38,150 nt of DNA from the NCBI GenBank assembly GCA_009691785.1, contig SIAM01000019.1, positions 1 through 38,150 on the forward strand, read 5' to 3'. Below are positions 2,668 to 16,380 of this stretch, in pieces. The position numbers and the translations under genes are program-made. Origin of the DNA: Phycisphaerales bacterium. GTDB taxonomy: Bacteria; Planctomycetota; Phycisphaerae; Phycisphaerales; SM1A02. The first letter of the stretch is position 1, and every line of letters starts with the position of its first letter. Below the pieces are notes generated by a model. It had not been told where the DNA came from and made no database searches. It saw nothing but the letters and a program-made list of their open reading frames with translations.

Positions 2668-3765
2668 ATGAAAAATATGCGAACCACATTTTTTATTGGC
2701 TTGGCGCTTGCGTTGTGCATTGCGCTGCCCGCGCTCGCGCGTGAAGAAAGCAAAACGCTTTCGCGCATCGCCGTGATTGGCGCCAGCATGAGCGACGGAT
2801 TTGGCGTGCGCGTGTCAACCACGCTTCCTGACGGCAAGAAAATTTCAGAAGGCGTGAACTTTGCGGAGTTGGTGAAAACCTCGTGCAAAGATCCATCGGT
2901 TGTCGTGGTGAATTACACAAGCAGTTTGTATTTCATGAATCCGGCGCGCATCGCAAAAAGCAGCGCCGCGCGCGCATGCGGCGCCAACGCGCAAGAAATG
3001 CCAACCTGCGTATTGGCTGTTGATTGGCTGTTCTGGAACGGTTACGGAACAAGCAACATGAAAGGCGAGAAATTGTCCACCGACCAAGAGCGCATGGAGT
3101 TACTAGACAACGCGCTTGCATGTTTGGAGCCATTTTGCGCGGCGAATATTCCTGTTGTGCTGGGAGATTTTCCAGACATGCACAGCGCGATTGGTGGCGG
3201 CATGATTTCCGCGCCCATGGTTCCATCGGTGGAATGTTTGGCGGCGCTAAACAAGCGCGTGGCGCAGTGGGCGCTGACAAAAAAAAATGTGTGCGTGGTG
3301 CCGCTTGCACAATTAACGCAAGATCTTTTACAAAAGACAACCATTCACGCGGCGGGCCGCGAGTGGGACGCTAAAACACTTGGGCCAATGCTGCAGAAGG
3401 ATCGCTTGCACCCAACATTTGCCGGAACCGTGACGGTGTTAGCGGCGACACTTGATGCGCTGAACACCAAGACGGACAACGCCGCGCTGAAAAGTTTTGA
3501 AATTGATCCCGCCGTGCTGCGCGAACGATTTGTGACGCAGTTGAAGGCCAGTGCCACCAAGACGGACGATGTTGTGCCAGCAACTCCATTGGCGAAACCG
3601 GAGTCGAGCATTCCTGTGATGTCACCGCCAAAATCAGAAACTCCACCACCAAGCGATTCACCGTCACCGACCAAGCCGTCCGCTACAAGTAATTCACAGA
3701 CGCCAAGTACGCCGCCCGAGCAACCGACACCAATTCCACAAATGTCGCTATTAACCACGCCATAA
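2668..3765 (+). CDS. Secreted SGNH/GDSL-like hydrolase with Pro-rich tail
   Basis: A signal peptide (hydrophobic core at about 7-23, ending PALA before REES) points to export. The body resembles SGNH hydrolases: block I as VIGASMSDGFG (36-46, Ser40 the likely nucleophile), a mid block VDWLFWNGYG (118-127) and block V as DRLHPTFAG (245-253, with Asp245 and His248 in the catalytic spacing). Such enzymes act as lipases, esterases or carbohydrate deacetylases; the substrate cannot be told here. The last 70 or so residues are rich in Pro, Ser and Thr and probably unstructured. A clear AGGAGA ribosome-binding site stands 4 bases before the ATG. It converges on the next gene with 16 bases between the ends. 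The fold assignment is fairly good, the substrate unknown. Confidence 0.75.
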   Translation: MKNMRTTFFIGLALALCIALPALAREESKTLSRIAVIGASMSDGFGVRVSTTLPDGKKISEGVNFAELVKTSCKDPSVVVVNYTSSLYFMNPARIAKSSAARACGANAQEMPTCVLAVDWLFWNGYGTSNMKGEKLSTDQERMELLDNALACLEPFCAANIPVVLGDFPDMHSAIGGGMISAPMVPSVECLAALNKRVAQWALTKKNVCVVPLAQLTQDLLQKTTIHAAGREWDAKTLGPMLQKDRLHPTFAGTVTVLAATLDALNTKTDNAALKSFEIDPAVLRERFVTQLKASATKTDDVVPATPLAKPESSIPVMSPPKSETPPPSDSPSPTKPSATSNSQTPSTPPEQPTPIPQMSLLTTP

Positions 3766-3781: not shown

Positions 3782-5815
3782 CTAGTTCGCTAATCCCTGC
3801 AAAATACTTTTCTGATTTGAGTCTGCTTCTTTCGCAGCAGCCTTCAAAAGCTCTTTGCGAGCAATGTCCGCGCTTGTAACGCGACTCAACGCCGGCAGAA
3901 GCCGCCGCCAATCATTGATAGCCCACGGGGAGCGCACCCCATTGACAAATAAATAAATAGTGTCGCCGTCCGTGATTTGAACAAGTTGATCGCCCCACAT
4001 TTGCCACAGCATGTCTATGGCCCGCGGAGTTGGTTGCGCAACCATTCGATAGGCCGTCAGAAATTGATCCGCGTTGCGCTGACGAAAGAGAGGTTCAAGC
4101 GCGAATGGCGCCATGCGCGGCGCGAATGATCTTGCGGCACATGTCAACCAGAATTGGGCGGCGATTTTGTCTTCGCCACGCTGAATTAGTTCGCGCAGCG
4201 CCGCAATGCTTGTGGTTCCCTCTTTATCTTCCTTGCTTTGCGTCAGAAGTTTTTTGCAATTCACAAGCACATCTTCTTGACCGGGAACAGGCGGCGGCGG
4301 TGCTTTGCGCGCGGTCAATTGCAATGATTTTGGCGCTTGAATCAACATCAGTGGATCACCAAGAGTTGCCACGCGCCAAGGCAAAGCGAACGGCCCTTCC
4401 CACACCCGCGCGGCGATTAAATAAGGAACAAAGTTGGCGCAACGCGCCATGATTTCCGCAGGTGGTGAAAAAGCGGGCAAATACGGCTCTTGCACGCTGC
4501 CAACATAGGCGTACACGCCAGACTCCAACCAACGACCGCCAATGCTCGCATGGTACATGGGCGCAGTCAGCGACCACGAATGAATCATGTGCAAGACAAG
4601 TGGCTTGGAGAGAATTGGAATGTCACCGGGCGCGCCGCGTTCTTGTATGGGCGTCTTGCCTGGGGTTCCAAATTCAAAAAAGTCGGAGTTGCCGGATGAA
4701 TTTAGGAACAACACATCGCAATGAAATCCATGCGCCAGAATTTGTCGCCAGTCGAACATGTGCGCCGTGGTGCCAGACCAAATCTTGCTTGTGTAACCAG
4801 CCTCTACAAGTTTTGGTTCCAACTCCGTGAAGCCATACTTGGCTAAGACCTCTGATTGATAACTGTTGAACGCGCCAATGGAATTGCGCGACAAAAACAA
4901 ACTGCTCATGGCGGCATACGCGCAATATGGTGATGTGCCAAATATGGCGCCGCAAAATGCGTAGCGCGATCCGTCAGTGTTTCGGCACAACGCATCGGTC
5001 ACCGCGACTGGATCGATTGGATTGATAGCGGGCATTCCACGCGCGCTTGGTCGCAGCGCATCCGAAACATTCAGGATAGTTTTTTGCGCCGTGGTTTTAC
5101 ACAATACCGCGGCCTCAAGCGCGTCGCCAAGTTGACCGTAGGACAATCCAGTGGACACAAAACATTGGTCAACCGCTTTAGAAAGTTTGTCAAATTGATC
5201 CGCGGCAAGCACGTCATTGGCGCCACCAAAATTGCCTTGAATAAAAACTGGAGCAAGTCCGCGGCCCGCCGCAAGCGCCACGCCCGCAACCCACGCGGGA
5301 TCGGATGCATCCATAATGGCGACGCCAGGTGGCGTGTAGGTCTGCGCAACGATTGCGGTTACTGGTAGCGTGTTAGGAACCGCGCAATTCCAAGCGCTCG
5401 ACACCGCATTTTCAATGGCGGCCTTCAACACCGCGGGATCATCCACGTTGGGCGCCTTCTCAACGCGGCGCAGAACTTGCGCAGGCTTGAATGCGCGAAT
5501 GAATTGCGGCGCGAAGATGTCGTCCTCTATTAATACTGGCCAGCGCGCTTCAAGGCGCCAGTGAGAAATTTCATCCAGGAATGAAGCCTCATCTTTCACA
5601 AGCACCACGCGGTCAAGCGTTGGAATTTTTGCCTCCACGCCGGCCACGCGCAGACCAAGTTCAACGCCCCAAGGATTTTTCTGCGCGGTCTGATTTGCCA
5701 CCGTGGACGAATTGGTTTGCGGCGCGGCGGCGAACATGACCGTGCATGTTGCAATGGCAACGGGCGCCAAGAGATGTCCAACGAATTTCAACCTATTCGT
5801 GCAAGTGGATGTCAT
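3782..5815 (-). CDS. Large secreted protein with C25/TIGR03790-like C-terminal half
   Basis: A 677-residue protein. ATG 5815 was chosen because it begins a signal peptide (Arg/Lys at 8-10, hydrophobic 14-30, ending FAAAP), while the longer frame upstream is the antisense of the methyltransferase gene. A TATCAT box 7 bases upstream supports it. The section around 412-489 (IHSW, GGRWLESGVYAYVGSVQEPY and ATLGDPLML) resembles the end of the caspase-like C25 peptidase or TIGR03790 families, where a His precedes the catalytic Cys. I cannot point to a convincing catalytic Cys, so enzymatic activity is unproven. The N-terminal half includes VLIEDDIFAPQFIRAF (about 94-109) and contains nothing I recognise. 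The remaining C-terminus may be helical, repeat-like scaffold. Best described as an exported protein of unknown function with a possible C25-like domain. Confidence 0.75.
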   Translation of the reverse strand: MTSTCTNRLKFVGHLLAPVAIATCTVMFAAAPQTNSSTVANQTAQKNPWGVELGLRVAGVEAKIPTLDRVVLVKDEASFLDEISHWRLEARWPVLIEDDIFAPQFIRAFKPAQVLRRVEKAPNVDDPAVLKAAIENAVSSAWNCAVPNTLPVTAIVAQTYTPPGVAIMDASDPAWVAGVALAAGRGLAPVFIQGNFGGANDVLAADQFDKLSKAVDQCFVSTGLSYGQLGDALEAAVLCKTTAQKTILNVSDALRPSARGMPAINPIDPVAVTDALCRNTDGSRYAFCGAIFGTSPYCAYAAMSSLFLSRNSIGAFNSYQSEVLAKYGFTELEPKLVEAGYTSKIWSGTTAHMFDWRQILAHGFHCDVLFLNSSGNSDFFEFGTPGKTPIQERGAPGDIPILSKPLVLHMIHSWSLTAPMYHASIGGRWLESGVYAYVGSVQEPYLPAFSPPAEIMARCANFVPYLIAARVWEGPFALPWRVATLGDPLMLIQAPKSLQLTARKAPPPPVPGQEDVLVNCKKLLTQSKEDKEGTTSIAALRELIQRGEDKIAAQFWLTCAARSFAPRMAPFALEPLFRQRNADQFLTAYRMVAQPTPRAIDMLWQMWGDQLVQITDGDTIYLFVNGVRSPWAINDWRRLLPALSRVTSADIARKELLKAAAKEADSNQKSILQGLAN

Positions 5816-5822
5816 AAGAAGG

Positions 5823-5828
5823 ATGATA
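5823..5828 (-). promoter_or_regulatory. Putative -10 box of a leaderless mRNA (677-residue protein)
   Basis: TATCAT on the minus strand, 7 bases before ATG 5815. The same bases contain the proposed ATG of the divergent methyltransferase at 5823, so promoter and coding start overlap. Confidence 0.35.
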
Positions 5829-6566
5829 GAGTCGAGAGTAATTGTGACGACCCGCCCAACCGAACTTGAAGGCATGGATGAACACGACGCGTCGCAGTCG
5901 GACATGGACGCAAGCTTTGAATTTATTCGACGAGTGAACCGCTTGGCCGGAGGTTTTTGGGCTTTCAAACACGCTATTCGCGTGGCGTTGCGTGGGCGCG
6001 GCCACAGCAGCGAGCCGCTTGAAATTCTTGATGTGGGAACTGGTTGTGCGGATCTTCCCATTGCCATTGTGGCGTGGGCGTTGCACCACAACATTCCCAT
6101 TCGCGTGACGGCCATTGATCCGCACGCTGGTTCAATGGCGGCGGCGAACGAATGCTTGAGTGCCTATGGTGCCAACGCAAATTTCATTCAGCTTGCGCAG
6201 TGCGGCCTGGATGATGTCGCGCAACAGTGGCGCAAACGAAAATGGGATGTGGTTCACGCCGCCATGATGTTGCACCACTTTCCAGACGAGCGCGTGCCAG
6301 CGGCGCTTGCAACCATGGGCCGAGCCAGCCGCGGCCTTGTGGTGTGGAATGATTTATGGCGCACACGCATAAGCGCGGCGATTGTGCGCGCGCTGACCAT
6401 GTTCTCCAGCGAGTTTGTACGCCATGACGCGCGCTTGAGCGTTGCGAAAGGTTTTTCGCGTCGCGAGATTCTTCAACATGTCAGCCGCGCGGGCTTGCAC
6501 ATGGACGCGCTTTCAATGAATCCATTCACCGCGCGATTTTTATTGTTGGCCACGCCATTACATTGA
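5823..6566 (+). CDS. Class I SAM-dependent methyltransferase
   Basis: A 247-residue cytosolic methyltransferase with the Rossmann SAM-binding motif I ILDVGTGCADLPIAI, motif II AIDPH and the later stretch WDVVHAAMMLHHFPD, typical of small-molecule or UbiE-like enzymes. The N-terminal helix FIRRVNRLAGG is typical of a subgroup often seen near polyketide or isoprenoid genes, but there is no such partner here. The frame is open to 5703; ATG 5823 was preferred because ELEGMDEHDAS just after it looks like the usual beginning of this subgroup. ATG 5874 and GTG 5844 are alternatives, and none has a good ribosome-binding site. If 5823 is right, only 7 bases separate it from the divergent start at 5815. 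The 3' end lies 5 bases from the end of the aquaporin gene. The substrate is unknown. Confidence 0.8.
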   Translation: MIESRVIVTTRPTELEGMDEHDASQSDMDASFEFIRRVNRLAGGFWAFKHAIRVALRGRGHSSEPLEILDVGTGCADLPIAIVAWALHHNIPIRVTAIDPHAGSMAAANECLSAYGANANFIQLAQCGLDDVAQQWRKRKWDVVHAAMMLHHFPDERVPAALATMGRASRGLVVWNDLWRTRISAAIVRALTMFSSEFVRHDARLSVAKGFSRREILQHVSRAGLHMDALSMNPFTARFLLLATPLH

Positions 6567-7393: not shown

Positions 7394-8218
7394 ATGTTTC
7401 TAACCACGCCAAGATGGTGGCTGCCCTTCTTTATGCCCTCAACAATTTCGTGGTTGCTGATTGTTGTGGGATTGATCTTTATGTGGCGCAATCGCGCAAG
7501 TTGCATATCGCGCGCGTGGCGCTTGGGCGCGTTGATGAACGCGCTTGGAGCGGTGATTTTATATCTGGCATGCGCGCCGTTTGTCGCCACCTGGTTGGCC
7601 CTGGGCTTGGAGCACATGGTTACCCCGCTTCGTGCAGCGGACGCGCCGAAGTGCGACGCCATTGTGGTGCTTGGAAGTTCCTTTCATTGGCACCGTGATC
7701 AACCAAATGAAACATATTTTGTAAGCGCCATCGCGGATCGATTTCGCGTGGCGGCCGAGGCGTACAAACTTGGCAAGGCGCCACTGCTGGTGTTGGGCGG
7801 CGGCGGCAAGCTAGATGAGCCAGGCGTGTGCGAGGGGCAATTTCAAAAGCAAATGGCGCTTGAACTAGCTATTCCGGAAAGCGCGATTGTGGTTGGTCCG
7901 CAAGTCATAAACACAGAGCAGGAAGCCATTCAGCACGCTGCGACATTGCGCGGTCTTCATGTGAAAAAGATTTTGCTTGCCACCAGTGTCTTTCATTTGC
8001 CGCGCGCCGCAATGCAATTTCGCGCGCTTGGATTTGAAGTGGTCGAATTACCGTGCCACTATCTCACGGCCGGAATTGACGAGCAATTCTCTTGGCGCAT
8101 GCTGTTGCCGCGTGGGCAGGCGCTGGATCAAACCGAAACATGCATGAAGGAATATCTGGGCTTGTTGTCGGCGACACTTTTCCTGGCCAAGGAAGCTGCC
8201 GTTGAGCCAACGCCATGA
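7394..8218 (+). CDS. YdcF/ElyC-like membrane protein (DUF218)
   Basis: A 274-residue protein with two N-terminal membrane segments (about 9-30 and 44-70) followed by a DUF218 domain: DAIVVLGSSFHW near its start, then LLVLGGGGKLDEPG and NTEQEA, then LLATSVFHLPRA. In E. coli the relatives SanA and ElyC affect envelope integrity and use of the undecaprenyl-phosphate carrier; the biochemical activity of the family is poorly defined. ATG 7394 was chosen because it directly precedes the first membrane helix; the frame is open further back to 7334. A TACTAT sequence lies 10 bases upstream. The stop overlaps the start of the next gene in an ATGA, so the two are probably translated together. Its position beside glycan genes fits a carrier-lipid or envelope role. 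Confidence 0.82.
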   Translation: MFLTTPRWWLPFFMPSTISWLLIVVGLIFMWRNRASCISRAWRLGALMNALGAVILYLACAPFVATWLALGLEHMVTPLRAADAPKCDAIVVLGSSFHWHRDQPNETYFVSAIADRFRVAAEAYKLGKAPLLVLGGGGKLDEPGVCEGQFQKQMALELAIPESAIVVGPQVINTEQEAIQHAATLRGLHVKKILLATSVFHLPRAAMQFRALGFEVVELPCHYLTAGIDEQFSWRMLLPRGQALDQTETCMKEYLGLLSATLFLAKEAAVEPTP

Positions 8219-9981
8219 GCGGCATATGCGGCCTGATTGATTTTGGCGCGGGCTTTACCGGAAAAAAACTCTCCGCGTTGATGGCGCAAATGCAGCACGC
8301 CATGATTCACCGTGGCTTTGAACGCGACTCGCTGTGGATGGGCGAGCAAACACAAATTGCGTTGTCCGATTGCCACTTGCTGACTTCGCGTACGGCGGTC
8401 TTGGCAAACTCCGCGTCGCACATTCAGATTGTGTATGACGGCGACGCGCTTGCAGCCACGCATGGCGCGGCGGTTGAACTGAATCAACACCCGCCCGTGC
8501 TTGCTGAACTCGCCCGCGTGTTCGCCGATCCAACCAAGAGCCCCATAGACGCGTTGCGCGCCATTGAAACTCCGTTTGCGCTTGTGCTTTGGAATGATCG
8601 ACTTAAAAAATTGCTACTAGCGCGCGATGCCTTTGATTCCAAGCCGCTGTATTTCGCTTCGGGGCGCGGATGGTTTGCGTTTGCCAGTGAATTGCGGGCG
8701 CTGAAAGTGATTCCAGGCTTTGATGCAACACTGGATCAAGACGCAATCAATGAATATGTAGTCCATGGCACCGTGACTGCGCCGCGATCCATGTATCAAG
8801 GCGCGCGCAAAGTGTGCGCGGGTGGATTTGTGGAGTTGGACTGCGCTCCACTCTTAGCAAGCGGAAGCTTGATTTCTATTCGCGAAGGTGATCCGGCAGC
8901 AAGCGGCGTTGTAACCATGCTCGCACCACTCTGCGGCGAATTACATTCGTCACATTTTTGCGGCGCACAACTTGATCACGATTCTCCAAATGCCACATCA
9001 ATTCGCGCGCCAACAAACTTGGCGCAACTCACTCTGTCTGAGCAAATCGAATTGCTGCGGCGCACCTTGCTGGATTCTTTACAAAATTCGCGCTTTCGTT
9101 CTAGCAGTGTTCATGTCATGAGCGTTCACAGGCCTGTTGACGCGCTTTTGGCGGCAATGTGTCGTTTGGAATTGCAACTTGAAACACACACATACGCGGT
9201 CGCAGATCCGCTGTATGCGGACAACTCAACTCTTTCAACAGATATCGCTCAACATCTTGGCGCCATTCATCATCAGGGGGAAACGCTAGAAGATTTTCCC
9301 GAGTTGCTCAATCGTGTTGCCCGCGCGCTTGATGAGCCAATGGGTTCGCTTGATGCGCTGGTCATGAATTCAAACGCCGCGTTCCTTCGCGCAAATTCGT
9401 CACATGCGCTGAGCGGGGTTGGCACAATCCGTCCCGTGGCAACGCCAACAATGTCATTCATCGAGGGAGTGATGCGAAGGAAACCTACAACCACTGGGTC
9501 GCCATCACAAACACAACCGCAGTCGTGCAATATTGCGTTGCTCAATCAAATTTCAGCGCATCACTCCCTTGCCGTGGCTACACCATTTTTAAATCACCAC
9601 GTCACCGCGCTTTTATCAGCGCCAGTCACTGGTCTTGCCACATCACTGGTACATCCATTTGCACAACAAACTTCAATGCGGCATTTGGCAACCATGAATA
9701 GCGACATGCTTGCGCACATGTTGCGCCAATATTTACCAGAGCCATTAATCATGCGAATCATGCAACACAACAATTCAACCATGCTCCCACATGCCGAAAA
9801 AGCCTTGGCGCAACTGTGCGAATCAAGCCTGTTTAACCCGCAATCACAAGTGTGCCAACTGACAAATCGAATCGCATTGCGTGGATTGCTTGCCAGCCCA
9901 GCGGTCAATGCACACCACGCCGCACAGCGTCGTTGGTCATTGCTTGTATTGGAATGTTGGTTGCGCAGACAGACGGCCTAG
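8215..9981 (+). CDS. Asparagine-synthetase-like pseudoenzyme (both sites degenerate)
   Basis: 588 residues with the overall layout of class B asparagine synthetases: an N-terminal Ntn glutaminase-like domain (about 1-210) and a C-terminal synthetase-like domain (about 275-560). Nearly all catalytic motifs are replaced. The nucleophile position 2 is Ser (MSGICG instead of MCGIAG), RGPD is RGFE and the NGE motif reads DGD. The ATP-pyrophosphatase loop SGGIDS is SVHRPVDA (303-310), and SGDGGDELFAG is SGVGTIRPVAT (400-410). The matching framework around them, for example LDEPMGSLDALVMNS and SLAVATPFLNHH, is still aligned with the intact AsnB at 12057. The frame is undamaged over its full length. 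It overlaps the YdcF-like gene by four bases. A structural or regulatory role, or a changed activity, is more likely than asparagine synthesis; Ser2 could still act as an Ntn nucleophile. Confidence 0.85.
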   Translation: MSGICGLIDFGAGFTGKKLSALMAQMQHAMIHRGFERDSLWMGEQTQIALSDCHLLTSRTAVLANSASHIQIVYDGDALAATHGAAVELNQHPPVLAELARVFADPTKSPIDALRAIETPFALVLWNDRLKKLLLARDAFDSKPLYFASGRGWFAFASELRALKVIPGFDATLDQDAINEYVVHGTVTAPRSMYQGARKVCAGGFVELDCAPLLASGSLISIREGDPAASGVVTMLAPLCGELHSSHFCGAQLDHDSPNATSIRAPTNLAQLTLSEQIELLRRTLLDSLQNSRFRSSSVHVMSVHRPVDALLAAMCRLELQLETHTYAVADPLYADNSTLSTDIAQHLGAIHHQGETLEDFPELLNRVARALDEPMGSLDALVMNSNAAFLRANSSHALSGVGTIRPVATPTMSFIEGVMRRKPTTTGSPSQTQPQSCNIALLNQISAHHSLAVATPFLNHHVTALLSAPVTGLATSLVHPFAQQTSMRHLATMNSDMLAHMLRQYLPEPLIMRIMQHNNSTMLPHAEKALAQLCESSLFNPQSQVCQLTNRIALRGLLASPAVNAHHAAQRRWSLLVLECWLRRQTA

Positions 9982-10007: not shown

Positions 10008-11888
10008 TCAGCGCAATTTTGCGGGGCTGGTTTCATATCCACCCACAACTTCGCCAAGCAGCCTGCGCACCACGCCATCGTCGCGCTGATCAACGGCGGT
10101 TTGCAAGCGATCAAGTTTGACTTCCAGCAAATTCCATGACTCAAATGGCTCGCGCGCCAAACCAATAGAAACATGTTCTGTTTTGATGGCGTCGCTGCTG
10201 ATCAGCAATTCCTCGTACAACTTTTCACCAGGGCGCGTGCCCGTGATTTGAATTTCAATTTCACCCGCGGGGTGGTCCGCATCGCGCAAGGTGCGTCCAG
10301 CAAGGCGAATCATGTTCTTAGCAAGATCAATAATTTTCACGGGCTCGCCCATGTCAAGCACAAAAACTTCGCCGCCCTTGGCCATGGCGCCAGCCTGAAT
10401 GACAAGTGAGGCGGCCTCTGGAATAGTCATGAAGTAGCGCACCATGTCCGCGTGCGTAACCGTGAGCGGACCGCCGCGCTCAAGTTGCTCTTGAAACAGC
10501 GGAATGACGGAGCCCGAAGATCCAAGAACATTTCCAAAGCGCACCATGGAAAAAATTGTGCGGCCCTTTGAAATTTCATTCATGGACTGCAAAATAATTT
10601 CTGCCAACCGCTTGCTGGCCCCCATGACGCTGGTGGGTCGCACGGCCTTGTCGGTTGACACAAAAATAAACGCCTTCACGCCGGCGTGCAGCGCGGACTG
10701 CGCCGTTGTGAGCGTGCCAAACACGTTGGTCTCCACGCCGGCGGTCTCATGTTTTTCAACCATTGGAACGTGTTTGTACGCGGCGGCGTGATAGATGGTT
10801 TCAATGCGCTGCGCCACCAACAAGCGGTCAAGCAGCACGCGGTCATTCACCGAACCAAGCGCGGTTTCCAGCAACATTTCGCCGCCACGCTTGGAAATCA
10901 TGTGGCGGATTTCTTTTTCAATGGTGTATAAATTGTGTTCGCATTGATCAAGAAGCACCAAGCGTGTTGGACCCGCCTGCACAATTTTGCGGCACAACTC
11001 CGAGCCAATTGAACCGCCCGCGCCAGTCACCAGCACGCTTTTGCCACTGATGTGCCTATGCATCAATTCTTCGTTGGCTTGAACAGGCGTGCGGCCAAGC
11101 AAATCGTCCACTTTCACGGGGCGAAGTTGCCCAACGGACGCGGTTCCATCATCCAGTTCCGCCAATGTTGGAACCGTCAGAACGCGCACGCCATGCTCCG
11201 TGGCTTTCTGAACTAGTTTCAAACGGCGCGCGCGGCTTGCTCCTGGAAGCGCCAGAAGCAACGCCTTGATGTCATGCTTGACAAAAACTTGCGAAAGATT
11301 TTCGTTGGAATACACAGGCACATTGCGAATTTTTCGTCCATGAAGTTTTGGATCATCATCAATGAACGCAACCACGGATTGCTCGCGGCCATGAATAAGC
11401 GCGGAGTGCAGGCCAATACCAGCCGCGCCCGCGCCAAAAATGGCCACTTTGTAATTCTTGGACTGGCCGCCCTTGCCCAGCAGCAACCAACGCGCTGCAA
11501 GGCGGGTGCCGCCAATTGCCAAAGTGGTAATGGTGAAATAGATCGCGGGTACGCCATAAGGATTTACTGCACGATCAAGTCCATCTTGAAACCACCTCAC
11601 GCTGAGCAACGCAACAACAAGTAGCGCAACGCCAAAGATAACACGCACGGCAAAAATTGGCCCAATATAGCGCGTAATTTCTTTGTACAAGCCCGCGCAA
11701 TAGAAACAAAGTGGCCCCAGGATTCCGGCCCATATCAAAAGCGCGTGAGAATTATTCCATGCTTCCAACGCTTCTTCGCGGCGAAGCCAATACGCCACAA
11801 ATACCAATCCGGCCGTCAAAAAAGCGTCGGACATTGCCGCCATAAAGACTTTAGAAGCCCCAGCCATTTGCACGAGAGAGTTTCGCAC
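10008..11888 (-). CDS. Membrane-bound nucleotide-sugar epimerase/dehydratase (FlaA1/CapD/PglF type)
   Basis: Large form of the polysaccharide-synthesis SDR family (626 residues). Four membrane segments occupy about 12-137, then a CoA-binding-like Rossmann fold (IFGAGAAGIGL, 150-160), then the catalytic SDR domain with the NAD-binding TGAGGSIGSELCRKI (288-302), HAAAYKHVPMVE (367-378), STDKAVRPTSVMGASKR (411-427) and TRPGEKLYEEL near the end. Characterised relatives convert UDP-GlcNAc to a 4-keto-6-deoxy sugar, the first step towards bacillosamine, QuiNAc or FucNAc. The exact product here is unknown. GTG 11888 is supported by a TATCAT box 6 bases upstream and a TTGAAT 16 bases before that; ATG 11867 is an alternative. 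It is divergent from asnB and converges on the AsnB-like gene. It belongs to the glycan cluster. Confidence 0.9.
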   Translation of the reverse strand: MRNSLVQMAGASKVFMAAMSDAFLTAGLVFVAYWLRREEALEAWNNSHALLIWAGILGPLCFYCAGLYKEITRYIGPIFAVRVIFGVALLVVALLSVRWFQDGLDRAVNPYGVPAIYFTITTLAIGGTRLAARWLLLGKGGQSKNYKVAIFGAGAAGIGLHSALIHGREQSVVAFIDDDPKLHGRKIRNVPVYSNENLSQVFVKHDIKALLLALPGASRARRLKLVQKATEHGVRVLTVPTLAELDDGTASVGQLRPVKVDDLLGRTPVQANEELMHRHISGKSVLVTGAGGSIGSELCRKIVQAGPTRLVLLDQCEHNLYTIEKEIRHMISKRGGEMLLETALGSVNDRVLLDRLLVAQRIETIYHAAAYKHVPMVEKHETAGVETNVFGTLTTAQSALHAGVKAFIFVSTDKAVRPTSVMGASKRLAEIILQSMNEISKGRTIFSMVRFGNVLGSSGSVIPLFQEQLERGGPLTVTHADMVRYFMTIPEAASLVIQAGAMAKGGEVFVLDMGEPVKIIDLAKNMIRLAGRTLRDADHPAGEIEIQITGTRPGEKLYEELLISSDAIKTEHVSIGLAREPFESWNLLEVKLDRLQTAVDQRDDGVVRRLLGEVVGGYETSPAKLR

Positions 11889-11922: not shown

Positions 11923-12056
11923 GGGGCGGTCGCTTATCGCAACCAAAATGACTTGGGCTATACCATTCACTTCATGAGTGCCCCCATGCATGTATTCACC
12001 GCACTATTTGGCGCAACAAGCCGAACAAAACCCAATCTATTGTGGAATGGCAATGC

Positions 12057-14018
12057 ATGTGCGGCATAGCGGGCTTTATTGATTTTTCGCATTCGCTCAA
12101 GAACCCTAAGGGCGTTCTGCGCGACATGGCTAACACGCTTGCGCACCGCGGACCGGACGCTTCTGGAATTTGGTTTCATGCTCCGACCAACGCCGGCCTG
12201 GCTCACACGCGATTAAAAATTATTGATTGCACGGATGCCGCGGCGCAACCCATGCATTCGCAAAGCGGGCGCTTCACGCTTGTGTTCAATGGAGAGATGT
12301 ACAACTTTCAAGAATTGCGCGAAGAGTTACGCGCGCTTGGCGTGGAGTTTCGCTCGCACTCCGACACGGAAGTTCTGTTGGCCGCAATAGAAACCTGGGG
12401 TGTTGCGGGCGCGGCGCGGCGCGCGGTTGGCATGTTTGCATTTGCAGTGCTTGATTCGCTGCAACGCACGCTGCATGTGGTGCGCGACCGAATCGGCATC
12501 AAGCCGCTCTACTTTGGATGGATTAGCCAAGGCGATGCGCGCGTCTTCGCATTTGCCAGTGAATTAAAAGCCATCGTGTGCGTGCCCAACTTTGAGCGCG
12601 CCGTGGACCGCGCAGCGCTGGCCGACTACTTTCAATTTTTGTACGTGCCTGCGCCGCGCACAATTTGGAAAGGCATTTCAAAACTCGCTCCGGCTCACAT
12701 TATGTCCATACATGTGGACACGGGCGAAACGCAGACCGCCATGTACTGGAACGCGCGCGCCATTGCCGAGCGCGGCGTGGCCAAACCGTTTGTGGGCAGC
12801 GACGCGGACGCGCAAGAGGCGCTATTCACGCGCGTGCGGGGCGCGGTTGACGACCACATGGTTTCGGATGTTCCCATTGGCGCGTTTCTTTCAGGCGGAA
12901 TTGATTCCACGCTTGTCTGCGCCGTCATGCAATCGCTTTCGCCGCAGCCAATACGCACATTCACCGTTGGATTTGAAGAAACGCAAATGGATGAGCGCAT
13001 GCACGCCAACACCGTGGCCAAACATTTAAAAACTGAGCACACCAGTATTCAAATTTCCGCCCATGAACTGCGCGACGCCATTCCCCTGCTGGCGCACATG
13101 TTTGACGAACCGTTCGCGGATTCCAGCCAGCTTCCAACGTATCTCATTTGCCACGCGGCGCGCCAACATGTCGCGGTGGCGCTGTCTGGCGATGGCGGCG
13201 ATGAACTGTTCGCCGGCTACAACCGATATCGAATGATGGATCATGTGTGGCCGACTCTGCGAAAAATTCCGACTCCGCTGCGAGCAACCGCAGCGTCAAT
13301 GATTCGCATGTTTTCCACCAAGCAACTTGATGCCGTTGGAAAATTCGCAAAACCGATTTTGCCTAACGCGTTGCGCACGAGCCAGTTTGGCGATCACTTG
13401 CACAAACTTGCTTCGCTTGCAAAGTGTAAAGAATGGACCGATGCGTATGTCGCGCTTGTCAGCGCGTGGAATGACCCCGCGCAGTTGGTGATTGATTCGC
13501 AACCGACCTCAACGGTTCATGATGCGTTCACGCAAGCCAACATGCCCGACGCGTTGCGCGCCATGCAGTGGCTTGATCAAACAACATATTTGGTGGACGA
13601 CATTTTGACCAAGCTTGACCGCGCTAGCATGGCCGCAAGTTTGGAGACGCGCGTTCCACTTCTTGATCATCGACTTGTGGAGTTCGCGTGGACATTGCCC
13701 GCACACATGAAGGTGCGCAATGGTCAAGGCAAATGGATGTTGCGGCAAGTGTTGAACAGATTTGTGCCGGCGCCGCTAATGGATCGCCCCAAAATGGGCT
13801 TTGCCATTCCGCTGGAGTCATGGTTGCGCGGGCCGCTGCGTGAATGGGCCAGTGATTTGCTGGATGGGCGCCGCGTGCGCGATCAAGGATTTCTACACGC
13901 GGATGTTGTGGCGCAAGAATGGCGGCAACTCTGCGCCGGTGGCGGCGCGCATCAACACAAAGTGTGGGCGTTGCTAATGTGGATGGCGTGGGTGGAACAT
14001 TGGAAGCCAACATCATGA
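12057..14018 (+). CDS. asnB: Asparagine synthase (glutamine-hydrolysing)
   Basis: Converts aspartate, glutamine and ATP to asparagine, or performs a similar amidation of a sugar or peptide in glycan pathways. All key motifs are intact: Cys2 nucleophile (MCGIAGF), RGPD (31-34), FNGEMYNF (77-84), SDTEVL (102-107), the ATP-pyrophosphatase loop SGGIDS (279-284) and SGDGGDELFAGYNRYR (377-392). The later LDRASMAASLETRVPLLDHR is also standard. The frame is open to GTG 12042, but ATG 12057 places Cys at position 2, as required once Met is removed. With 653 residues it matches the XrtA/PEP-CTERM-type amidotransferases common in exopolysaccharide clusters. The 168 bases separating it from the divergent FlaA1/CapD-type gene hold no other gene and no strong promoter. 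The glycosyltransferase follows after 70 bases. Confidence 0.92.
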   Translation: MCGIAGFIDFSHSLKNPKGVLRDMANTLAHRGPDASGIWFHAPTNAGLAHTRLKIIDCTDAAAQPMHSQSGRFTLVFNGEMYNFQELREELRALGVEFRSHSDTEVLLAAIETWGVAGAARRAVGMFAFAVLDSLQRTLHVVRDRIGIKPLYFGWISQGDARVFAFASELKAIVCVPNFERAVDRAALADYFQFLYVPAPRTIWKGISKLAPAHIMSIHVDTGETQTAMYWNARAIAERGVAKPFVGSDADAQEALFTRVRGAVDDHMVSDVPIGAFLSGGIDSTLVCAVMQSLSPQPIRTFTVGFEETQMDERMHANTVAKHLKTEHTSIQISAHELRDAIPLLAHMFDEPFADSSQLPTYLICHAARQHVAVALSGDGGDELFAGYNRYRMMDHVWPTLRKIPTPLRATAASMIRMFSTKQLDAVGKFAKPILPNALRTSQFGDHLHKLASLAKCKEWTDAYVALVSAWNDPAQLVIDSQPTSTVHDAFTQANMPDALRAMQWLDQTTYLVDDILTKLDRASMAASLETRVPLLDHRLVEFAWTLPAHMKVRNGQGKWMLRQVLNRFVPAPLMDRPKMGFAIPLESWLRGPLREWASDLLDGRRVRDQGFLHADVVAQEWRQLCAGGGAHQHKVWALLMWMAWVEHWKPTS

Positions 14019-14088
14019 GCGCCAACACATTCCACAACGCGCTTCATGGCGCATGCAAGCACGCGCGCGCAAGATTGGGGCGCGCGCG

Positions 14089-15231
14089 ATGAGCCAGAAA
14101 ACACTCGCGCTTTTGGGCAAGAATGCGCAACACGTGCTTGCGTTTCGCGGCAGCTTCATTCGCGCCGCGCAAGCCAATGGGCACCGCGTGATCGCGCTCA
14201 CCGCGCCGGCAACCGCGCGTTCGCGCCAGCGCTTGCGCCAGGCTGGCGTGGAGCACTTTGACACTCCACTGCGCGGCGGCGCAATTTCGCCGCTGCGGGA
14301 TTTGCAATTTCAAAGCACGGTCAGCGATATTTTGAAGGCGCAACGCGTGGATGCGTTGCTTGCCTACAACCCAAAGTGCGTCGCGTTTGGCCCCATTGCG
14401 GCGCGCCGTGCGGGCGTGAAAAAAATCGCCGCAGTTATCACCGGCCTTGGCTTTGCGTTCACAGGTCAAACAATTGCGCGGCGGTTTGTGCGCTTTTTTT
14501 CCACGCGCCTCTATCGCCTCTCGCTTGCGGCGTGCGACGCGGTGTTCTTTCAAAATGAAATTGACTGCGTTGAACTGGCTGCGCTTGGAGTGCTGGTTCA
14601 TGTTCCCGCCGCGCGCGTGCACATCATCGCGGGCTCGGGCGTTGATCTTGATCACTTTGCAGAGCAACCCGTTCCAGCGCACACGCAATTTCTCATGATC
14701 ACTCGCCCGCTAAGGGACAAAGGCGTGGCGGAATTTGCGCAAGCGTGCAAGATTGTCCGAGCGCGCAATCCCGCCATTCGCTGCACGCTGATCTGCGCAT
14801 GGGACGACAACCCCAGCAGTTTCACGCGCGCCGACATTGCGCGCTGGGCGCAAGAAGGTTGCTTTCACGCGCTTGATGAAGTTGAGGATGTGCGCCCGCA
14901 CCTGCACGCGTGCACCACATTTGTGCTGCCTTCATATCGCGAAGGCACCAGCAAGGTTGTTCTTGAAGCCATGGCCACGGGCCGCGCGATTATTTCCACG
15001 GACGCAATTGGTTGCCGCGATCCAATTGAACCCGGCGTGAACGGCCTGCTTGTTGCAACGCACTCCGCCACCGAACTTGCCGCCGCCATGTTGGAGCTGG
15101 CCAATGATCCTGTGCGCAACGCCGCCATGGGCGCGGCCAGCCGCCGCATTGCGCGCGACAAATACAACGCCACGCCAATTGACGCGGCCATTCTTCATGC
15201 GCTGAACCTGGACTCTCCCGCGCGCGCCTAA
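14089..15231 (+). CDS. Family 4 glycosyltransferase (GT-B fold)
   Basis: 380 residues with the two-domain layout of GT4 enzymes. The N-terminal half holds LAFRGSFIRAAQANGHRV and the acceptor-side AAVITGLGFAFTG. The C-terminal half has the donor-site segment LPSYREGTSKVVLEAMATGR, with the EX7E-like pair Glu-Gly-Thr to Leu-Glu-Ala, followed by STDAIGCRDPIEPGVNGLLV. The family closely resembles PglA/CapM-type enzymes that add GalNAc or GlcNAc to an undecaprenyl-linked bacillosamine-type sugar, which would fit the FlaA1/CapD-type gene nearby. The frame is open from 14053; ATG 14089 was chosen because the mature N-terminal beta strand (KTLALLG) begins straight after it. It lies 70 bases after asnB and is probably co-transcribed. 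The last codons and stop sit in a GCGCGC-CTAA-GCGCGC hairpin. Confidence 0.88.
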   Translation: MSQKTLALLGKNAQHVLAFRGSFIRAAQANGHRVIALTAPATARSRQRLRQAGVEHFDTPLRGGAISPLRDLQFQSTVSDILKAQRVDALLAYNPKCVAFGPIAARRAGVKKIAAVITGLGFAFTGQTIARRFVRFFSTRLYRLSLAACDAVFFQNEIDCVELAALGVLVHVPAARVHIIAGSGVDLDHFAEQPVPAHTQFLMITRPLRDKGVAEFAQACKIVRARNPAIRCTLICAWDDNPSSFTRADIARWAQEGCFHALDEVEDVRPHLHACTTFVLPSYREGTSKVVLEAMATGRAIISTDAIGCRDPIEPGVNGLLVATHSATELAAAMLELANDPVRNAAMGAASRRIARDKYNATPIDAAILHALNLDSPARA

Positions 15232-15372: not shown

Positions 15373-16380
15373 ATGAATATTCTGGTCACCGGCGCCGCGG
15401 GATTTATTGGTTCATTCACCGCGCATCAATTGCTTGACCGAGGCGACCACGTTATTGGCTTGGACAACATGAACAACTATTACGACCCCACGCTCAAGCA
15501 AGCGCGCCTGGCGCGGCTTCAAGCGCGCGACCATTTCACATTCACGCAATTGGATTTGTGCGACACGGATGGAATGAAATCCCTGTTCGCCAAAAACAAG
15601 TTCGACCGCGTGATTCATTTGGCGGCACAGGCTGGCGTGCGCTACTCCATTGAAAATCCAATGGCGTACACGCAAAGCAATTTGGTTGGCATGACAAACA
15701 TTCTTGAAGGCTGCCGCCACGGCAAAGTGGCGCACTTGGTCTACGCCAGCACAAGTTCGGTGTATGGCCTGAACACCACGCAACCATTTTCGCCGCACCA
15801 TAGCGCCGATCATCCCATGACTTTTTACGCCGCCACCAAGCGCGCCAACGAACTCATGGCGCATTCATTCAGCCATATTTTTGGCATGCCCACAACTGGC
15901 CTGCGTTTCTTCACGGTGTATGGTCCCTGGGGCCGCCCCGACATGGCGCTGTTTCTTTTCACCAAGGCCATTCTTGCGGGCGAATCCATTCGCCTGTTCA
16001 ACCACGGCAAGCACACGCGCGACTTCACCTATGTGGAAGATATTGCGCGCGGCGTGATTGCGGCGGCTGATCGCATTGCAACGCCCGACGCAACATTCAA
16101 CGCGTCAAAGCCCGATCTTGCAAGCAGCAGCGCGCCGTGGCGTTTGTACAACATTGGTTGTTCGCGGCCCGTGCAACTTTTGCGCTATATAGAAGTTCTG
16201 GAGCAATGCCTGGGCAAAAAAGCCAAGACAGAAATGCTGCCGCTGCAACTAGGCGATGTGCCCGACACATTCGCCGACACCACCGACCTGGCGCGCGACA
16301 TGAACTATCAACCCTCAACCACAATTGACACTGGCGTGGCCAATTTTGTGCGCTGGTACCGCGACTATTACAAGGCGTGA
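15373..16380 (+). CDS. NAD-dependent nucleotide-sugar epimerase (UDP-glucuronate 4-epimerase-like)
   Basis: Extended SDR enzyme of 335 residues. The NAD-binding TGAAGFIGS sits at 6-14, DNMNNYYDP at 31-39 and [15 protein letters not shown] at 82-96. The catalytic set is STSSVYG (126-132) and Tyr152-Lys156 in YAATK. The sequence [19 protein letters not shown] and [16 protein letters not shown] follow. This combination is typical of enzymes interconverting UDP-glucuronate and UDP-galacturonate, so UDP-GalA supply for a surface glycan is the likely job; UDP-glucose epimerisation is less likely. Its TAGAAT box, 6 bases before the ATG, suggests its own leaderless transcript even though it follows the glycosyltransferase in the same direction. 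Confidence 0.88.

Follow-up and report, generated by a model that had tools for sequence, protein, structure and literature searches.

The window, by which we mean the whole stretch of 38,150 nucleotides analysed here, carries a surface-polysaccharide locus that encodes a CapD/PseB-like dehydratase, a GT4 glycosyltransferase, an epimerase, a GH57 protein and an ElyC-like DUF218 protein (Table 1). Two members of the AsnB family lie within it. One, encoded to the right of the dehydratase gene in window coordinates, is an AsnB-type amidotransferase with intact motifs (Pfam Asn_synthase, 383 bits) and is the only strong Asn_synthase match in the window's genome, which is 92% complete. Because the AsnB-like gene product WbpS makes a sugar uronamide in a glycan locus (PMC7468200), this neighbour may, by analogy, amidate a sugar. 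The other is the subject of this study, an open ATG-initiated frame of 588 codons for a protein of 588 residues in which both active sites are replaced, hereafter the pseudoenzyme.

Table 1 Features of the pseudoenzyme gene and its locus, in window coordinates
Feature	Position	Strand	Remark
ElyC-like DUF218 membrane protein, two predicted helices	7334..8218	+	start may lie further in
ATGA overlap of ElyC-like stop and pseudoenzyme start	8215..8218	+	in 8/8 loci read
Pseudoenzyme gene, AsnB family, both active sites lost	8215..9981	+	ORF, Pfam, motif mapping, orthologues
Glutaminase-like (Ntn, GATase_7) domain, residues 1-208	8215..8838	+	most constrained part
Long linker, residues 209-272	8839..9030	+	partly conserved in orthologues
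Synthetase-like domain, first half, residues 273-403	9031..9423	+	LDEP motif and scaffold kept
SGGxDS PP-loop position, residues 304-309	9124..9141	+	unrelated, variable; last residue Asp in 8/8
SGDGGDE position, residues 400-406	9412..9432	+	variable; remnant SGAGATDLFAG in G014
Low-confidence loop, residues 404-440	9424..9534	+	replaces deleted part of synthetase core
C-terminal helical part, residues 441-588	9535..9978	+	Pfam Asn_synthase match; helices kept, catalytic Lys/Asp lost
CapD/PseB-like nucleotide-sugar 4,6-dehydratase	10008..11888	-	flanks pseudoenzyme always
Intact AsnB-type amidotransferase, TIGR03108-like	12042..14018	+	MCGIAG at 12057, SGGIDS, SGDGGDE
GT4 glycosyltransferase	14053..15231	+	
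NDP-sugar epimerase/dehydratase	15373..16380	+	

The upstream neighbour, which a sequence-only reading of this DNA had called YdcF-like, is instead ElyC-like with two predicted membrane helices; its DUF218 domain is recognized, and its score against ElyC itself (PRK10494) is 58.8 bits, short of the cut-off of 205. The GTG start of this gene is doubtful, since the matching sequence in genome G005 contains an in-frame TGA and has an open frame of only 282 residues, and the match in G014 begins only at residue 15. Further upstream, positions 2668-3765 encode a conserved, secreted-looking protein with no Pfam match, in which a signal-like N-terminus is followed by an SGNH/GDSL-like GASMSDGFG stretch (by eye), and positions 3782-6115 hold a conserved ORF of 777 residues, syntenic across the genus, with no Pfam or NCBIfam match. 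Elsewhere in the genome, an exosortase scores above its Pfam cut-off (G000:C77:1401-2192, locus L127).

Catalytic residues and predicted fold of the pseudoenzyme

The pseudoenzyme belongs to the AsnB superfamily by descent, as the sequence-only reading had held, with Pfam scores that are low though above the curated cut-offs (Asn_synthase, 38 bits against 21; GATase_7, 38 bits against 25). Its best NCBIfam model, the XrtA/PEP-CTERM amidotransferase family TIGR03108, is matched at 82.4 bits against a curated cut-off of 816.9, which places it outside that family. We mapped the catalytic positions on an alignment of 48 sequences (eight orthologues and 40 intact homologues), using the numbering of mature E. 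coli AsnB as counted by us through the 1ct9 alignment. The nucleophile Cys1 is present in 40 of 40 intact homologues and is replaced by serine (Ser2) in all eight orthologues. In the pocket, Arg49 has become His54, Asn74 Asp75 and Glu76 Asp77, so that N-G-E reads D-G-D, and Asp98 is His, Tyr or Leu across the orthologues; Gly75, His29, Arg30 and Gly31 are kept. The corresponding glutaminase network of human ASNS consists of Arg48, Asn74, Gly75, Glu76 and Asp96 (PMC6748925). On the synthetase side, SGGIDS has turned into xxxxxD and SGDGGDE is lost, both replaced in 8/8 orthologues, KxDR reads LxNQ, and LExR, the catalytic Lys449 (likewise replaced in 8/8) and KxGF are gone, with DEP kept; in human ASNS, the E364A, E364Q and D367A variants are inactive (PMC6748925). 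The loss of both active sites read from the letters is thus borne out and extends to further synthetase residues, and by its residues the protein falls outside AsnB and the class II glutamine amidotransferases as enzymes. The proposal that the cysteine had moved to position 5 does not hold, as MSGICG aligns with MCGIAG without a gap and Cys5 simply replaces Ala5. A shifted Cys5 nucleophile was rejected on the same ungapped N-termini and on the intact homologue of G192, which reads MCGICGIVDF.

Among the eight orthologues, S2, F35, H54, D75 and D77 are invariant, and the PP-loop and SGDGGDE positions drift. That these pocket replacements are fixed is only suggestive, because half of the residues of the glutaminase-like domain are invariant anyway.

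A fold model built from the 48-row alignment with intact AsnBs predicts both domains (mean pLDDT 77.8, pTM 0.82), is unreliable at residues 405-436 and 477-494, and falls to a pLDDT of 32 when the eight orthologues alone serve as the alignment. Its closest structural matches are TsnB9 (VIA Z 25.8), E. coli AsnB (24.2) and human ASNS (23.8), followed by beta-lactam and carbapenam synthetase (1JGT, 1Q15; VIA Z about 20-23). The predicted fold is thus a two-domain AsnB-like one, a match that is partly built in because the alignment behind the model includes intact AsnBs. The scaffold had been said to align with the AsnB 2 kb away, and it does so weakly: BLASTP aligns residues 1-200 only, at 27%, and for the C-terminal half the likeness shows up only in profile matching and in the predicted fold. 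The intact AsnB of G030 carries a linker of similar length to residues 209-272.

AsnB-type amidotransferases of glycan loci (TIGR03108; the uronamide synthase WbpS/PGN_1234) share the two-domain architecture and locus context of the pseudoenzyme, which differs from them in lacking the catalytic Cys, the glutamine-binding residues, the PP-loop and SGDGGDE. Beta-lactam and carbapenam synthetases are AsnB relatives without the glutaminase nucleophile; their adenylating synthetase site still works, whereas the pseudoenzyme has lost that too. Human ASNSD1, an AsnB-domain relative whose activity is uncertain and predicted by similarity (PMC9140057), is eukaryotic, unlike the pseudoenzyme, and resembles it through AsnB-domain descent.

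Distribution and origin

Orthologues occur in 10 of the 16 genomes of the genus, eight at full length and two cut by contig ends (G012, G015), with identities of 51-80% and lengths of 562-619 residues; presence in 10 genomes rules out an artefact of metagenome assembly. In all ten, the frame is open with no internal stop or frameshift. Orthologues with intact motifs and frameshifts in close relatives, either of which would have spoken for simple decay, were looked for and none were found. Searching 301 genomes sampled from the order with a profile of the eight full-length sequences gave no match in another genus at E 1e-45, and the three partial AsnB-domain matches in a phage collection are irrelevant. 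The relatives with named public records are MAGs labelled as planctomycetes or uncultured bacteria, whose isolate names suggest a freshwater habitat for the clade.

At every locus read, the gene order, as far as contig ends allow, is MIP, ElyC-like, pseudoenzyme, CapD, AsnB, GT4. Within the genus, G001, G011 and G013 lack the pseudoenzyme but carry the intact AsnB, which therefore does not depend on it. In G013 the ElyC-like gene directly adjoins CapD, and in G001 two unrelated ORFs lie between them; by eye, the ORFs of this gap (L085, 7066-10144) are Wzz-like and O-antigen-ligase-like.

The constant adjacency and the overlap of the two reading frames in all eight loci raise the alternative that the partner of the pseudoenzyme is the ElyC-like protein and not AsnB, the two overlapping genes forming a unit that governs the allocation of lipid-linked glycan; in E. 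coli, ElyC regulates the synthesis of enterobacterial common antigen and peptidoglycan (ECA-PG; PMC8609368). However, the ElyC-like protein has two predicted membrane helices, and genus members without the pseudoenzyme keep it at about 40% identity. Because the DUF218 domain of E. coli ElyC is periplasmic (PMC8609368), direct binding of this domain to a cytosolic pseudoenzyme is, by analogy, unlikely, and we regard the alternative as a whole as highly improbable.

In a tree of 61 sequences, the pseudoenzymes form one clade (support 100/100) on a stem of 2.2. Their sister group (99/99) comprises 13 intact AsnBs from other genera, and the subfamily of the neighbouring AsnB stands apart; the placement of so long a branch calls for caution, and letter make-up deviates in most pseudoenzyme rows. 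A recent duplication of the neighbouring AsnB is ruled out by this tree. The description of the gene as an AsnB paralogue near an intact relative is right about the intact neighbour, though that neighbour is not the closest paralogue: the nearest intact relatives belong to another subfamily. The members of this sister subfamily (G030, G061, G189, G192, G059 and others) are 23-26% identical to the pseudoenzyme and, unlike it, have all catalytic motifs; several adjoin Wzt/Wzm-type ABC genes, an O-antigen ligase and glycosyltransferases. Since genes of both AsnB subfamilies occur no more than about 8 kb apart in G030, G061, G189 and, apparently and from the ORF table only, G079, the locus with two AsnB genes may be ancestral, one copy having lost its chemistry in this clade. 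In G014, the deepest-branching member, SGAGATDLFAG survives as a remnant, yet Ser2 is already in place. The pseudoenzymes have a single origin and, read from the sequences, their glutaminase and synthetase chemistry was lost before the clade radiated.

Selective constraint and candidate roles

Rates were estimated by the Nei-Gojobori method, with codon-bootstrap intervals for the regional values. Over the whole gene, dN/dS of the pseudoenzyme is 0.16-0.30, with upper 95% bounds of at most 0.42; the intact AsnB gives 0.11-0.14, and the ElyC-like, CapD and GT4 genes 0.09-0.19. The glutaminase-like domain shows dN/dS of 0.08-0.12 in five of eight pairs (0.16, 0.19 and 0.24 in the other three), and the glutaminase domain of the intact AsnB 0.08-0.18; the dead domain, at about 0.09, is thus usually as constrained as that of its active neighbour. 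Evolution of the synthetase half is roughly twice as rapid as in the active AsnB, with dN/dS of 0.12-0.27 at residues 273-403 and 0.16-0.40 at residues 441-588 (0.12-0.18 in the C-domain of the intact AsnB), and residues 404-440 are near neutral (0.35-1.2). Residues invariant in all eight orthologues make up 50% of positions 1-208 and about 27% of the synthetase half but are absent from positions 404-440. Taken together, regional dN/dS and invariance locate the constraint in the glutaminase-like domain and in the helices that frame the synthetase half; the former ATP site is not under it. The protein combines lost catalytic residues with purifying selection and retention, and on these sequence grounds qualifies as a pseudoenzyme. 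Its conservation, claimed from the letters, is supported by presence in 10/16 genomes, synteny, dN/dS well below 1 and fixed glutaminase-pocket residues.

A dead duplicate that costs nothing to lose and happens to be still unbroken could account for a dN/dS above that of the neighbours, the near-neutral loop at 404-440, lengths that vary from 562 to 619 residues, drifting catalytic motifs and the half-eroded SGAGATDLFAG of G014. Yet ten genomes lack a stop or frameshift even though pairwise dS between orthologues reaches 0.2-1.2, whole-gene dN/dS is far below 1, that of the glutaminase-like domain is near 0.09, and the C-terminal helices are conserved. Relaxed selection as a sign of decay, which the sequence-only reading had named as evidence against itself, is found in the synthetase half, whereas the glutaminase-like domain is constrained. 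For the N-terminal domain slow decay is already largely refuted, and for the gene we think it a poor prospect. The earlier interpretation as a whole is partly supported.

The constrained pocket could also belong to an altered Ntn enzyme, with Ser2 as the nucleophile after removal of the initiator Met and a pocket of His54, Asp75, Gly76 and Asp77, that hydrolyses or transfers a non-glutamine amide, perhaps on a glycan precursor. Other Ntn hydrolases use serine as a nucleophile, the eight orthologues all share Ser2 and most of the other pocket replacements, and in most pairs the domain is constrained like an active glutaminase. But Asn74 (now Asp), the glutamine-binding Arg49, Glu76 and Asp98 are all lost, residues whose human equivalents belong to the substrate-recognition and thioester-stabilisation network (PMC6748925), and pocket invariance weighs little in a domain with half its residues invariant; we consider such an enzyme unlikely. 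Similarly unlikely is a ligand sensor, in which the pocket would hold glutamine or a sugar-amide unhydrolysed and inform the polysaccharide machinery of nitrogen or precursor status: the remodelled pocket is fixed, the domain strongly constrained and the locus context suitable, but the three glutamine-binding side chains are all changed and there is no effector module.

We rank a binding function above the altered Ser-Ntn enzyme, the sensor, the ElyC partner and slow decay as the most likely explanation. The pseudoenzyme is specific to this lineage, and its Ntn-fold domain would bind a partner or regulate a step in surface-glycan assembly, a reading whose chances, the partner step included, we judge to be about even. 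The protein descends from an AsnB subfamily other than that of the intact neighbour and was retained after losing both chemistries; its translation would be coupled to that of the ElyC-like gene. The Ntn-fold domain would dock to a partner encoded in the locus, with the intact AsnB-type sugar amidotransferase as the first candidate, and would tune or place it through binding rather than catalysis, with the shrunken synthetase half as a scaffold. That the protein has a new molecular function, either as an Ntn enzyme that uses an N-terminal serine on a new substrate or as a dedicated allosteric subunit of a sugar amidotransferase, is conceivable though rather doubtful.

A works-like analogue is PDX1.2, which is reported to be a non-catalytic plant paralogue that regulates vitamin B6 biosynthesis (PMC6829848). 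It too is a non-catalytic paralogue of a glutamine-amidotransferase system kept in one lineage; its fold is unrelated, and its regulatory role is reported, whereas a partnership of the pseudoenzyme is proposed here. The open-access literature searched yielded no described AsnB pseudoenzyme, which does not prove that there is none. An AsnB relative dead at both sites, yet under purifying selection that is strongest on the dead glutaminase domain, would cleanly test what the amidotransferase scaffold is worth without its chemistry. Since the position of the gene next to an intact AsnB-type enzyme in a surface-glycan locus is fixed, the partner hypothesis can be tested directly.

A minor observation concerns divergence within the locus. 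Between the window and G006 and G008, dS of the pseudoenzyme gene is 0.79 and 0.96, above that of the flanking ElyC-like (0.49, 0.76), CapD (0.55, 0.77) and AsnB genes (0.46, 0.55). Gene trees conflict, placing the window either with G006 or with G003/G005; alleles may have been exchanged within the locus.
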